Positions 745 through 6,802 of a stretch of DNA of 30,829 nt are shown here, piece after piece; position 1 is the first letter of the stretch; each line of letters opens with the position of its first letter. The notes beneath the pieces were generated by a model. It saw nothing but the letters and a program-made list of their open reading frames with translations, was not told where the DNA came from and made no database searches. The stretch is from a virus, in IMG/VR virus record IMGVR_UViG_3300010151_000085, positions 1 to 30,829 of that record. One strand, given 5' to 3'. The position numbers and the translations under genes were made by a program.

Positions 745-1821
745 TCAAGTAGCATAGTAGGAATAGTTTATTCCCGCATCTATGGTTCCTCTGACATAAA
801 CTTTATTTAAATTGTCTACTTCAATGAATACCTCTTCTCTGTCATCTAAATCCCAACCACCAGTCATTGCTGATGTGGAACCTGCGACAGAATCGTAAGA
901 AACAGTAAGAGTACCGGAACCGTGTGTATTTTTAACTCGAACACCAGATTGTAGTGTTGTAGAAGTAGTTCTGAGTTGAATGCCGCCCGATCCACCATAT
1001 GCACCACCAGTGCCGGCAGTACTTGATCCCATTACTACTGGATTGTCTACAGAAATGCTTCCAATTCCGATTGTTACTCCGCCTGCGATTGCAGCAATTG
1101 CGGCAGTCATACCACCTGTTGCTTCAATAAGAACGGTACTTCCTTTAGCACTACCAGTCCAACCATTTACGCTTCTAATGTCTGCTGAAAGTCCACCGAT
1201 TCGATAAGTACCATCTGCTCCAGTACCACCAACTTTAATGCTGTGGATGTCTGATGCAATTCTTCTTAATTTTGCGGATATTGTTCCTACAAAAGCACCT
1301 GTAGCGGCAATTGCATGTGCTGAAGTACCATATCCACCTGTTGCAGACGAATCTGTTGTAGCACCAACATGTGGGATTGCTCCGCCCGCAGTAGAACCTG
1401 CGATTGGTACATAATGTCCACCACTTGTTCCTGCGACTGCAATTGTTGCGGTTGCACCTGGTCCATAAATCAATAGACTTGCGGCAGAACCACCTTGATT
1501 TCTAATATTAACATCAATCATTCTTGAGGTTGAAGATGCAATAGCGGTAGTACTAACAGCCGAACCAGAAGAATCTCTCATTTGTATTGGAATTGGGGCA
1601 TTTCCTGATCCCGTTGTCGCTCCAGAGGATACAGCATCGTCCGCCCAATAAAATTCACCAGTTGATCCCCATGCAAGTTTGACAACCTGAACTTCCATTT
1701 GGGTTGCGCCTGCTCCAGAGGATAGCCCAAGTCCCGTGCCGGTTAGAAAGGTTTCTGTAGCGATCATGGCACCACTGGTTCCTGCGGCCGCCGAAAGTTG
1801 AACTCCGCCTTGTTTTGGCAT
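745..1821 (-). CDS. Gly/Ala/Ser/Thr-rich virion-type protein, decoration/adhesin-like
   Basis: The 358-residue product is dominated by Gly, Ala, Ser and Thr with no cysteine. Most of it is short beta-prone repeats separated by glycine turns. The last 70 or so residues look like a compact beta domain seen at the ends of phage virion proteins: GVRVKN, then a Gly/Thr-rich stretch, then EEVFIEVDNLNKVYV. This suggests a head decoration, fibre or other surface protein, but no family is firmly recognised. An AGGAG lies 7 bases before the ATG, and TATAAATA and TATACATA elements on this strand (1910-1903, 1860-1853) fit T4-type late transcription. It is isolated on the minus strand among replication and regulatory genes. 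A true gene is likely from the ribosome-binding site, promoter elements and unbroken frame; the function is uncertain. Confidence 0.7.
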   Translation of the reverse strand: MPKQGGVQLSAAAGTSGAMIATETFLTGTGLGLSSGAGATQMEVQVVKLAWGSTGEFYWADDAVSSGATTGSGNAPIPIQMRDSSGSAVSTTAIASSTSRMIDVNIRNQGGSAASLLIYGPGATATIAVAGTSGGHYVPIAGSTAGGAIPHVGATTDSSATGGYGTSAHAIAATGAFVGTISAKLRRIASDIHSIKVGGTGADGTYRIGGLSADIRSVNGWTGSAKGSTVLIEATGGMTAAIAAIAGGVTIGIGSISVDNPVVMGSSTAGTGGAYGGSGGIQLRTTSTTLQSGVRVKNTHGSGTLTVSYDSVAGSTSAMTGGWDLDDREEVFIEVDNLNKVYVRGTIDAGINYSYYAT

Positions 1822-2888: not shown

Positions 2889-3773
2889 ATGTCATTTGAA
2901 AACATGAAAAGTAGTTCAATGTCCAGTTTCGAGAAGTTGACTGGCGAATTAGACAAACTCTCAAAGAAGAGTGAGTCATACAAAGACGACCGAATTTGGA
3001 AGCCAGAATTGGATAAGGCATCTAATGGATATGCAGTCATTAGGTTTTTACCTGCACCCAAAGACGAAGAACTCCCGTGGGTTCGTGTCTTTAATCATGG
3101 GTTCAAAGGACCTGGTGGTTGGTACATCGAAAACTCTCGTACTACACTTGGCGAAAAAGACCCAGTATCGGAGATGAACACCCAACTATGGAATAGTGGT
3201 ATTGAATCTGATAAGGATATTGCAAGAAATCGCAAGCGTCGATTGAGTTACTACTCAAATATTCTTGTTGTTTCTGACCCCAAGAATCCTGAGAATGAGG
3301 GTAAAATATTCCTCTACAAATTCGGTAAGAAGATTTTCGATAAGATTATGGAAAAGATGCAGCCAGAGTTTGAAGATGAAACTGCAATCAATCCGTTTGA
3401 TTTTTGGGGTGGTGCAAACTTCCGCCTTAAGGTTCGTAAGGTTGCAGGATTTGTTAATTACGACAAGAGCGAATTTGAAGATGCATCACCGCTACTTGAC
3501 GGAGATGATGCACAACTTGAAGAATTGTGGCAGAAGCAATATTCTCTGGCAGAGTTCAACGACCCATCCAACTTTAAACCTTATGGTGAATTGAAGACTA
3601 AACTTGAAACTGTCCTTGGTGGTAATATTAGATTCACAGAAACAGCAGAATCCACCACAGAACAGCAGTTATCTCCTTCCACAAAAGTATCAGAGGAAAG
3701 CAATAGCGTCAGTGAAACTGTTGATGATGATGACGCATTGTCCTACTTTGAGAAATTGGCAAACGAAAGTTAA
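2889..3773 (+). CDS. 32: gp32 single-stranded DNA-binding protein
   Basis: The 294-residue protein matches T4 gp32 through its OB-fold core. Clear landmarks are FNHGFK (68-73), WYIEN (78-82), SYYSNILVVSDP (120-131), ENEGKIFLYKFGKKI (135-149), WGGANFRLKV (173-182) and VAGFVNYDKSEF (185-196). It coats ssDNA cooperatively and coordinates replication, recombination and repair. The N-terminal arm (about 1-20) is Ser/Met-rich and basic further on. The C-terminal tail is Asp/Glu-rich (279-294) and should be the partner-binding tail. T4 gp32 holds zinc with His64, Cys77, Cys87 and Cys90; here the His is kept (His70), Cys77 is Ser83, and no cysteine occurs in the whole protein, so this is a zinc-free form. 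AGGAG lies 7-8 bases before the ATG. The gene has its own strong promoter and a terminator directly after it. Confidence 0.96.
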   Translation: MSFENMKSSSMSSFEKLTGELDKLSKKSESYKDDRIWKPELDKASNGYAVIRFLPAPKDEELPWVRVFNHGFKGPGGWYIENSRTTLGEKDPVSEMNTQLWNSGIESDKDIARNRKRRLSYYSNILVVSDPKNPENEGKIFLYKFGKKIFDKIMEKMQPEFEDETAINPFDFWGGANFRLKVRKVAGFVNYDKSEFEDASPLLDGDDAQLEELWQKQYSLAEFNDPSNFKPYGELKTKLETVLGGNIRFTETAESTTEQQLSPSTKVSEESNSVSETVDDDDALSYFEKLANES

Positions 3774-3831: not shown

Positions 3832-5925
3832 TTATGACCATCCCTTTAGATTGTGTTGTGTGTTATCTAAAAGTGCAATTCTTTCCCTATCCATAAATGA
3901 TGTTTCATCATATGGATCGGCATTATAGTTTGTGTTTTGTTGGACAGAAACGGATGGTGCATTTGTAATAGCCAACCCAGTTCCGGGCATGGTTCCGCCT
4001 CCAGCAAACGATGCAATAAATCTATTTGATGCATTTACATCAAGAGCAATTGCTCCCGGGACGCCATTAACGTTTGGGCCCATTGACTGCGGCTTAATTT
4101 TTTGTTTTGTGTTATGCTCTTCTAATAGTCTATGGTAATTTTGTATGCCTGGATCTAACTCATAATATCCTCGGCCGTATTTTGGAAGCACCCATTTCAT
4201 TCCACTTTCTTTTAGGAGATCTCTTGATATCGTTCCCCTTGGGCCCCCGCGATCAGACTTGTGCGATGAATAATCGTTTTCTGGATTGAGAAACCACATT
4301 CGTTGCTTTAGACTATTCAGATAAGCCTTATCCTGACTCTCAAACATTCCCATATCGTTGTAAATGCTGTTTAAGATTTGTTGCGAGGCCCCCCAATTAT
4401 TTTTATGCATATGCATAGCATTTACTATGTCGCTCTGATTTCTCGGCATAGTACCTCTGACTAAATAGGCTCGCTCATCTATTAAACCTTCAGCAGCGCC
4501 CATCAATGAATTTGCTTCAACGTGTTCATCATTGTTTCGTGCTGCAAGGGCGGCCCTCATGGTTTCTATTATTTGAGTTTCGTTAATATCTAATTTATTT
4601 TTTGCTATTTCTATATTATTGGATTGACTGTCGAGCCAGGCATTTCCCGTAGATGTTCGGGTTCTATTAGGATCAAAAATGACACTACCCGATCCTGGCA
4701 CTATGTTCCCAAACATATCCATTTCAGTACCACTGGTGAGTGATCTTGTTATGCCTTCTGGATCGATATATGACCCTGATGAATTAATTGCTGCATTTAG
4801 TTTAGTTGTTGTGTGTTCTGCATCTCGAATCATTGCTTGACCGATTTGCCATAACGTTTCTGTGATACCAAAAGAAATCAACCCACCGGCGATTCGACTA
4901 CTGGAGGCAATTGCTTTTGCACCAGCACTTAACCTACCCATTCTTGTTGTTGTCGCTGCCCCGGATCTGGACCCGGCCCAAAGAGCGGCAAGACCACCGC
5001 CGCCACCAGCAGAACTTCCCAATCTTGCTCCTATCGCCGTGGCCGCTCCACCAAGCATCCATTGGCCGACACGGGTTTTAGCAATCCATCTTGCTGCTCC
5101 CCCCACTGGGCCTGCAAGCATTGCAGCAATTATGGCATTGTCCATCGTAGCGATGTCGCCAAGTCCACCGCCGTCGTCACCGTCAGCCCCTGCTGCACCA
5201 CCGCCGCTTGCCATGATTATGGAAGGATGCTTAACCATGTCTCGTATTTCTTCCAACAAGTCGATAACAACATTTTCTTTTTGTTTTACTTCTTGGACTC
5301 GTACTTCTTGTTTTCTTCTTACTTCTTCTTTTTCAGCAGGCGTATCATCTGTACTTTGTTCTGATACGACACCAAGATCGGACTCTGCCATTCGTAAACG
5401 AAGTTCTGCGTGGGACCTTTTGCGGGAATTCGCACCTTTACTTCCGGGAACTGTTGCTAAATACCCACCAAACTTACTTCCAAATATTGTAGTGAATATA
5501 CTTGTTCCATATCCTTGTGTTGATTTAGATCTCTCTTCTCTTAATGCGTGTTTTCTTGCTTTACCAACACCACCCATGGCAATAGATGCGTATTCGCTTA
5601 AAAAATCACCCTCTGCACCATCAACTTCTGTGCTTACTTTTGCGATTTCTTGTATTCGTTTGCTGATGTCCTTTAGCCGCTTCGAATCTGCTTTTGTTCC
5701 TTCGTCTATAAGTTTTTTTATTTCACTTTTGAGAAGATTGGTGGATCCTTTCAGTTCATTATCTGATTTTCCAAACAAAGCACTAAGTTCTGCTTGTGAT
5801 TCTGAGACTTCTTTAATAACATCACGAATTGATTCTCTGCTCAATTCGCCAATAGATAAAGTCGAGCGAACATTTTTCTTTGCCTCTATTATTTTATCTT
5901 CAAGTTGTCGAATTCTATCTTCCAT
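3832..5925 (-). CDS. probable tail tape measure / gp29-like hub protein
   Basis: The 697-residue protein has charged, heptad-like helices in residues 1-100 and a basic Glu/Lys/Arg coiled-coil stretch at about 165-230. A Gly/Ala-rich hydrophobic region follows at about 239-365, with segments such as AIIAAMLAGPVGGAA and IAGGLISFGITETLW, and the rest is mostly polar. Coiled coils followed by hydrophobic segments are typical of tape-measure proteins, which set tail length and are threaded into the host membrane. Its position directly after a frameshifting tail chaperone supports this, as does the gp26/gp54 neighbourhood; T4 gp29 (590 residues) plays this role. No gp29 sequence motif was recognised with certainty. 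Its ATG overlaps the TAA of the -1 frame gp26 extension (TAATG) and has no clear ribosome-binding site, so it probably relies on translational coupling. Confidence 0.65.
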   Translation of the reverse strand: MEDRIRQLEDKIIEAKKNVRSTLSIGELSRESIRDVIKEVSESQAELSALFGKSDNELKGSTNLLKSEIKKLIDEGTKADSKRLKDISKRIQEIAKVSTEVDGAEGDFLSEYASIAMGGVGKARKHALREERSKSTQGYGTSIFTTIFGSKFGGYLATVPGSKGANSRKRSHAELRLRMAESDLGVVSEQSTDDTPAEKEEVRRKQEVRVQEVKQKENVVIDLLEEIRDMVKHPSIIMASGGGAAGADGDDGGGLGDIATMDNAIIAAMLAGPVGGAARWIAKTRVGQWMLGGAATAIGARLGSSAGGGGGLAALWAGSRSGAATTTRMGRLSAGAKAIASSSRIAGGLISFGITETLWQIGQAMIRDAEHTTTKLNAAINSSGSYIDPEGITRSLTSGTEMDMFGNIVPGSGSVIFDPNRTRTSTGNAWLDSQSNNIEIAKNKLDINETQIIETMRAALAARNNDEHVEANSLMGAAEGLIDERAYLVRGTMPRNQSDIVNAMHMHKNNWGASQQILNSIYNDMGMFESQDKAYLNSLKQRMWFLNPENDYSSHKSDRGGPRGTISRDLLKESGMKWVLPKYGRGYYELDPGIQNYHRLLEEHNTKQKIKPQSMGPNVNGVPGAIALDVNASNRFIASFAGGGTMPGTGLAITNAPSVSVQQNTNYNADPYDETSFMDRERIALLDNTQHNLKGWS

Positions 5926-6113
5926 TATTGTTTGCTCATTTGTTCCATTTTCTTATTTTCTTCTTTGATGTGTTCTATTAATAAGTTTGTGTATATTTCT
6001 CTCTCCCACGGCATCATATTCTCTAACTCTTCAAGAGAATATTTGTGATGTTGCATCATTTGGAAGTTTAACTTGTAATACAACATCAGCGTTTCATGGG
6101 AGAGACTTAGAGA
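5925..6113 (-). CDS. -1 frameshift extension of gp26 (tail chaperone GT-like part)
   Basis: A -1 shift at the T7 run (6119-6113) leads from gp26 into 62 more codons ending in TAA at 5927-5925. The added peptide begins SLSLSHETLM and contains MMQHHKYSLEELENMMPW followed by EREIY and a charged Lys/Glu tail, a well-structured helical sequence rather than noise. The full fusion, starting at 6802, would be about 292 residues. An internal ATG at 6086 could start a 53-residue protein on its own, but no clear ribosome-binding site is seen. Lambda gpG/gpGT and many other long-tailed phages use such a fusion as a chaperone for the next-encoded tape measure, which is the arrangement here. The stop overlaps the next gene's ATG, showing that this frame is under selection. 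The alternative is one missing T in the homopolymer, giving one continuous gene. Confidence 0.75.
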   Translation of the reverse strand, partial: SLSLSHETLMLYYKLNFQMMQHHKYSLEELENMMPWEREIYTNLLIEHIKEENKKMEQMSKQ

Positions 6114-6802
6114 AAAAAATCACCAAGTCCCTCCAATGCAAATTCGTTTTCCTTTTCGCATTTGGCACATTTAAACTTGACATCGTGGTGTAGTTTTGGC
6201 ATAGTAGAAAAGAAATTTAAAATACTTTCAAATTGTTTATGTGTTAACCCTTCTATGAACGTTTTTAATTCTTCGTCTTTATATTCAGAAGATTTATGTA
6301 TGGCATCTCCCTCATAGATGATATCGACACAATCAGCAATAGATTTAATCGATATTTGTTCTTGTTCTTCTGACTCCACATCTTCAGACAACACAGGATA
6401 CTTCATAACAATTCCCAATTCGCCACCCAACGAAATCTTCTTCGTGTGTTCTTTGTCTTCATCAATATTAATTTTTGTTAAATCAATTTCAACTGGATTG
6501 GGTGTATCACAGTGCTGGCAATATAAAATGGGTTCTGCTGTCTCACCAACAGATTTTGCTCGAATGTTGAGGAATAAATGACACAAATCAAATACTGGTA
6601 ATTCATCAACATTAATTTTATCAAATGTACACGATTTCACTGTGTCTTTGATTGCAGTTACAATCATGTTAAAGTTACCACTTTCCATTGCGATCATTAA
6701 TACTTTTTCTTCTTTTACGACAAATGGCCGAAAAGAAACAGCATTTCCTGATGAATGTAATTTTAATTTATATTTTGGTAAAGTTATTGTTGGTAGTGTC
6801 AT
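6107..6802 (-). CDS. 26: gp26-like baseplate hub / tail assembly chaperone
   Basis: The 231-residue 0-frame product resembles the T4 gp26 baseplate protein family: a beta-rich start (TLPKYKLKL), FRPFVVKEEKVLM, and a helical C-terminal half ending LEGLGDFFL. Two CxxC pairs (CQHC near 95-98 and CAKC near 212-215) can form one zinc ribbon. In T4, gp26 acts in hub assembly and is not abundant in the virion. The ATG at 6802 is preferred because GGAG lies 6 bases before it; an ATG four codons upstream (6814) lacks a ribosome-binding site. It follows gp54 on the same strand and precedes the tape measure. It ends within two codons of a T7 slippery run, so two products, a short one and a fusion, are predicted. 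Confidence 0.75.
   Translation of the reverse strand: MTLPTITLPKYKLKLHSSGNAVSFRPFVVKEEKVLMIAMESGNFNMIVTAIKDTVKSCTFDKINVDELPVFDLCHLFLNIRAKSVGETAEPILYCQHCDTPNPVEIDLTKINIDEDKEHTKKISLGGELGIVMKYPVLSEDVESEEQEQISIKSIADCVDIIYEGDAIHKSSEYKDEELKTFIEGLTHKQFESILNFFSTMPKLHHDVKFKCAKCEKENEFALEGLGDFFL
6113..6134 (-). promoter_or_regulatory. programmed -1 ribosomal frameshift signal
   Basis: On the minus strand GGAGGG (6134-6129) is followed by 9 bases and then T TTT TTT (6119-6113), in phase with gp26 codons GAT TTT TTT. Slipping back one base re-pairs both Phe codons perfectly. An SD-like element about 10 bases upstream of a slippery heptamer is the stimulator known from E. coli dnaX. No strong downstream hairpin or pseudoknot was found by eye; the 0-frame stop follows after one codon. 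Confidence 0.75.

Follow-up and report, generated by a model that had tools for sequence, protein, structure and literature searches.

Two probable forms of a tail assembly chaperone at the gp26 locus

The window, a 30,829-base IMG/VR virus record analysed here over its full length, carries T4-like head and tail genes. Its gp26 locus very probably encodes two forms of the tail assembly chaperone of a T4-like (Kyanoviridae-like) marine phage, the longer of which would be produced by a -1 ribosomal slip. In the best reading, the short form (TAC-N) is gp26, and the long form (TAC-NC) is a frameshift product of 296 aa. The gene order on the minus strand is a gp4-like head closure gene, a gp2-like DNA end protector gene, a tail tube protein gene, gp26, and an ORF of 697 aa. 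The junction is composed of the following features:

6814-6107, minus strand: gp26 (TAC-N, 0 frame), 235 aa, with the last codons GAT TTT TTT CTC TAA
6134-6129, minus strand: Shine-Dalgarno (SD)-like GGAGGG, 9 nt before the T7, within the Leu-Glu-Gly codons TTG GAG GGA
6119-6113, minus strand: in-phase slippery heptamer T TTT TTT (0-frame codons GAT TTT TTT)
6109-6107, minus strand: stop codon TAA of gp26, one codon past the heptamer
6113-5925, minus strand: -1 extension (TAC-C, gp51-like), 62 codons (6113-5928) followed by TAA (5927-5925)
5925-3832, minus strand: 697-aa ORF, a candidate tape measure gene by position

A sequence-only reading had described this arrangement, and its coordinates, the GGAGGG, the 9-base gap, the in-phase T7, the stop, the 62 codons, and the TAA/ATG overlap were all recovered. 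The peptide read after a -1 slip is SLSLSHETLMLYYKLNFQMMQHHKYSLEELENMMPWEREIYTNLLIEHIKEENKKMEQMSKQ (62 codons), and the predicted frameshift product has 234 + 62 = 296 aa. The TAA of the extension (5927-5925) overlaps the ATG (5925-5923) of the 697-aa ORF as TAATG. Directly 5' of the T run, a TGA terminates the -1 frame, and the two frames overlap by 10 nt; thus, a change of frame is possible only on the run and the codon that follows it. Elsewhere in the window, a 358-aa ORF rich in Gly, Ser, Thr, and Ala (745-1821, minus strand) had no match in PHROGs.

The gp26 cassette is more than a chance arrangement. The genes of the window contained 19 in-phase A6N or T6N heptamers, and the one in gp26 was the only one located at a gene end, where a known protein family follows in the -1 frame. 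The open -1 frame of 62 codons is weak evidence by itself (P ~0.04 at the composition of the window). When compared with close relatives, the extension was found to evolve as a protein, with a dN of ~0.10-0.15 and a dS that was saturated or 1.7.

Conservation of the heptamer and the -1 frame

A core set of 90 unique junctions was collected mainly via the extension. All 90 were in a -1 relation and harbored an in-phase heptamer (T TTT TTC in 56, T TTT TTT in 24, and T TTT TTA in 10), with the 0-frame stop mostly one codon further on, and the T run started at the third base of a codon in every one of them. The run consisted of only six T in 66 of these junctions, and of seven to nine T in a minority. 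A second set of 61 unique junctions was chosen on N-terminal patterns of gp26 alone to avoid bias from the extension; the in-phase heptamer was scored in 60 of these, and the remaining one (L162) also carried the run. Of 80 loci searched with the HMM of the extension, 78 gave a match, always in the -1 frame and never in the 0 or +1 frame; the two loci that lacked a match were L162 and L122, and the contig of L122 ends at this point. The codon before the T run ended in T in all 119 representatives (log10 P of -21.5 when conditioned on amino acids and on pooled codon usage, uncorrected for kinship). Such a strict codon phase is needed by tandem slippage of ribosomes, but not by transcript slippage.

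The in-phase heptamer was also present in phages of Caulobacter, Vibrio, Aeromonas, Pseudomonas, Rhizobium, and Desulfovibrio. A comparison of gp26 loci, as proposed in the sequence-only reading, showed conservation of T TTT TTN, the SD-like element, and the -1 frame, with T7 itself occurring in part of the relatives. The canonical heptamer was absent in two more distant gp26 relatives, Salmonella phage Vi01 (L022) and Vibrio phage K448 (L020), and any shift in these two phages would work differently from that of the phages with the canonical heptamer. An open -1 extension follows gp26 in both Vi01 (3260-3468) and K448 (2030-2255), and their junctions read GAA ATT TTC ATT TAA and TCA CTT TTC AAG TAA, respectively.

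Shine-Dalgarno-like element and RNA structure

The SD-like element was analysed in 119 divergent representatives, with an anti-SD sequence taken as E. coli-like, which may differ from that of the hosts. Glutamate at the SD-like site was encoded by GAG in 56 cases and by GAA in 16, whereas GAG accounted for 24% in the same genes (p = 6e-22, uncorrected for kinship). Given this excess of GAG over gene-wide usage, the Glu-Gly dipeptide does not account for the motif, and codon usage indicates that GAG GGN is kept by codon choice rather than by its amino acids. Pairing with the assumed E. coli-like anti-SD was stronger than synonymous randomisation would give (mean z of -1.48), compared with -0.14 to +0.21 in ten control windows within the genes. 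Of the 102 relatives that had the motif, 95 carried it 8 or 9 nt before the heptamer. As in dnaX, where an SD-like element is located about 10 nt upstream, the window contained GGAGGG at 9 nt.

Across relatives, folding clearly exceeded that of synonymous controls only just 3' of the heptamer, with a mean z of -2.4 to -1.6 for folding windows that started within 8 nt; the signal faded to -0.6 by 23 nt and was -0.5 to 0 over the rest of the region. A large share of this hairpin signal came from one cyanophage clade (42 representatives, mean of -4.7). Compensatory changes backed the downstream stem in two groups, with A-U, U-A, and G-C at one pair in one group and two pairs in the other, although these counts concern few pairs each, in sequences that were selected for forming the stem. 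The downstream hairpin was present in many relatives, among them three close to the window (L004, L006, and L106), and absent in the window itself (z of +0.4), which therefore lacks the hairpin 5-9 nt past the slip site that is characteristic of the dnaX type. Raw means appeared to indicate a trade-off between T7 and the hairpin (-0.7 for T7, n = 40; -3.2 for T6C/A, n = 79; p = 4e-7), but only 7 of 13 independent contrasts on the tree agreed, and the difference was put down to relatedness.

Two other stems were observed in the window. A 12-bp stem (6138-6095, minus strand), in which GGAGGGACTTGG pairs with the sequence at and just past the gp26 stop, encloses the slip site and would hide the SD-like element. 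Its z was -5.8 against shuffles and -4.7 against synonymous codons. Among relatives, L006 had a clear long form, L004 and L007 had no clear one, and the stems of L023 and L032 were shorter. This stem was dropped as a candidate stimulator because a ribosome positioned on the heptamer would already have melted it. A second strong stem of 13 bp (6046-6088, minus strand) lies inside the extension, ~24 nt past the slip site.

Domain identity and the neighbouring ORF

The gp26 of the window matched PF12322 (E = 2e-59) and phrog_150 (E = 9.6e-65). The extension matched phrog_634, annotated as baseplate hub assembly catalyst (gp51; E = 3.7e-26), as well as the C-terminal end of phrog_150, and its profile matched residues 207-244 of T4 gp51 (E = 4e-4). 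T4 gp51 is itself a full-length protein of the gp26 family (PF12322, E = 7.7e-55; phrog_150 positions 13-280, E = 1e-87), and its C-terminus corresponds to the domain of the extension. In the AlphaFold2 model of gp26 (pLDDT of 87), the N-terminal domain resembled the HK97 tail assembly chaperone 2ob9 (Z of 7.7 over 86 residues, rmsd of 4.2), and a comparison with 3fgx gave a Z of 8.1, whereas the next unrelated fold reached a Z of 2.7. A Foldseek search with the model alone returned no significant match in the PDB. These middling Z values, together with the non-significant Foldseek result, support a predicted tail assembly chaperone fold for gp26 without proving it.

The 697-aa ORF had no family match in profile searches and no match in the phage collection. 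It shared 27% identity over 586 columns with the ORF at the same place in L007, and both Cr30 and HTVC008M have a gene with a tape measure annotation at roughly this position; similarity to the tested part of the HTVC008M tape measure was undetectable. The proposal that the cassette precedes a tape measure gene is therefore a positional one, including the overlapping start, and the 697-aa protein is a candidate tape measure.

Proposed mechanism

The elements, their conservation and phase, the families of both domains, and the chaperone-like fold of gp26 were all obtained from sequences and models. The following account of slippage, its rate, and its role in assembly is a proposal. Most ribosomes would stop at the TAA at 6109-6107 and release gp26 (TAC-N, 235 aa), and a minority would slip back by one base, with tRNA-Phe on U UUU UUU. 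Pairing of GGAGGG with 16S rRNA 9 nt upstream would help this slip. The slipped ribosomes would read the -1 frame and yield the 296-aa TAC-NC with its gp51-like C-terminal domain. If the lambda gpG/gpGT pair is a guide, many copies of TAC-N and few of TAC-NC may coat the tape measure protein, recruit tail-tube subunits, and then leave. In E. coli, A AAA AAG shifts more readily than U UUU UUU (PMC5009743), which counts against slippage, as do the absence of the downstream hairpin from the window, the absence of a canonical heptamer from Vi01 and K448, and an ATG near the junction in some relatives.

Alternative explanations

The -1 ORF could instead be an independent small gene 51 that is translated by reinitiation near the gp26 stop, and it is so annotated in P-SSM2, S-RSM4, HTVC008M, and others. 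An ATG is found within 11 codons in 40 of 119 relatives and overlaps the TGA stop in L004, but the position of the start is not conserved, and in 50 of the 119 none of the first 11 extension codons is ATG, GTG, or TTG. Anti-SD pairing before the ATGs near the junction was weak (mean of -1.0 kcal/mol with an E. coli-like anti-SD assumed), and the first ATG of the extension in the window is codon 10, past an invariant His. An in-phase slippery heptamer would be needless for a separate gene, and T4 gp51 has this domain fused to a gp26-like domain. A separate gene 51 is thus quite unlikely. Slippage of RNA polymerase on the T run, rather than of ribosomes, could also join the two frames, as runs of nine A or T slip in bacteria (PMC5009743) and a minority of the relatives have seven to nine T. 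However, runs of only six T, the state of 66 of the 90 core junctions, are short for efficient transcript slippage, judging from the nine-base examples in PMC5009743, and the codon phase in 90 of 90 as well as the SD-like and hairpin elements are expected for ribosomes, which makes polymerase slippage very improbable.

Sequencing error or gene decay, with a single unbroken ORF in reality, would find a parallel in Vibrio phage TDDLMA, in which gp26-like and gp51-like domains lie within one ORF. Nonetheless, two contigs with 100% identical gp26 (IMG/VR 3300006754 and 3300037634) have exactly seven T, which counts against an eight-T assembly error, the outcome that the sequence-only reading had named as a refutation. 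The T7 is identical in these independent assemblies, and the same break occurs in all readable gp26-selected relatives and in several phage groups, so that conservation refutes this explanation and leaves it a negligible chance. Among homologues, the break and the slippery run are widespread, and the single unbroken ORF is that of TDDLMA. The production of gp26 as a short and a -1 fused form in the manner of gpG/gpGT, as originally proposed, is the best-supported reading, since the conserved heptamer, the -1 coding, the lack of a conserved start, the SD codon choice, and the chaperone fold agree.

Comparison with known systems

The slip site of lambda gpG/gpGT is G GGA AAG, whereas the window has T TTT TTT with an SD-like element. 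In lambda, a short form and, in minor amounts, a -1 fused form are encoded immediately ahead of the tape measure gene (scheme in PMC5009743). E. coli dnaX shares the SD-like element upstream of a slippery heptamer, but differs in its A AAA AAG, its efficiency of ~50%, and a -1 product that ends one codon later (PMC5009743). In the tail assembly chaperones of Vandenendeviridae and Andersonviridae, which are other phage families, a like -1 shift occurs where TAC-N ends in a GTTTTT motif, and the extension is likewise misannotated as a separate gene or as intergenic (PMC12846349).

In T4, both domains are homologous to those of the window, but genes 26 and 51 are separate and lie on opposite strands. 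T4 thus has the short and long forms as two genes, whereas a shift is most likely the source of the long form in the lineage of the window. Vibrio phage TDDLMA (L188, 664-1353) showed a third layout, with both domains in one unbroken ORF. Frameshifting is said to be conserved in several T4-like groups, T4 itself reportedly using genes 26 and 51.

The layout had been thought undescribed for the gp26 family, which does not hold: Vladimirov, Gautam and Davidson (2022; Virology 566:9-15) reported tail assembly chaperone genes and frameshift sites in T4-like phages. PMC12846349 credits that study with poly-T -1 signals in the TAC-N genes of T4-like phages. The TAC-N and TAC-NC of that study reportedly belong to the same gp26/gp51 family, in which TAC-N ends with a poly-T -1 site and the extension is TAC-C. 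The statistics on the SD-like element and on hairpins specific to certain lineages may add new detail to this known principle. More tentatively, T TTT TTN, together with an SD-like element 8-9 nt upstream and, in many lineages, a downstream hairpin of shifting register, may be kept across marine T4-like phages as a full cassette that would set the ratio of TAC-N to TAC-NC, with the hairpin absent in some lineages such as that of the window; such stimulators may be undescribed for gp26/gp51.

Implications for annotation

According to Sullivan et al. (2010; PMC3037559), gp51 of cyanophages is missing the first 200 residues and reaches only ~20% of the T4 gp51 length; the frameshift would explain this odd size. 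What is annotated as a short separate "gp51" in marine T4-like phages thus most likely represents the part of gp26 that is reached by the frameshift. In public cyanophage and pelagiphage records (L009-L016 and L184-L194), the extension is either missing or given as a separate gp51 whose start varies, and it was left unannotated in S-CAM1, S-WAM1, and Aeh1. A total of 702 records matched the extension. If the frameshift is real, the annotation of hundreds of genomes would be corrected, and these phages would offer natural sites that combine an SD-like element with a U run for study, the principle itself being already known.
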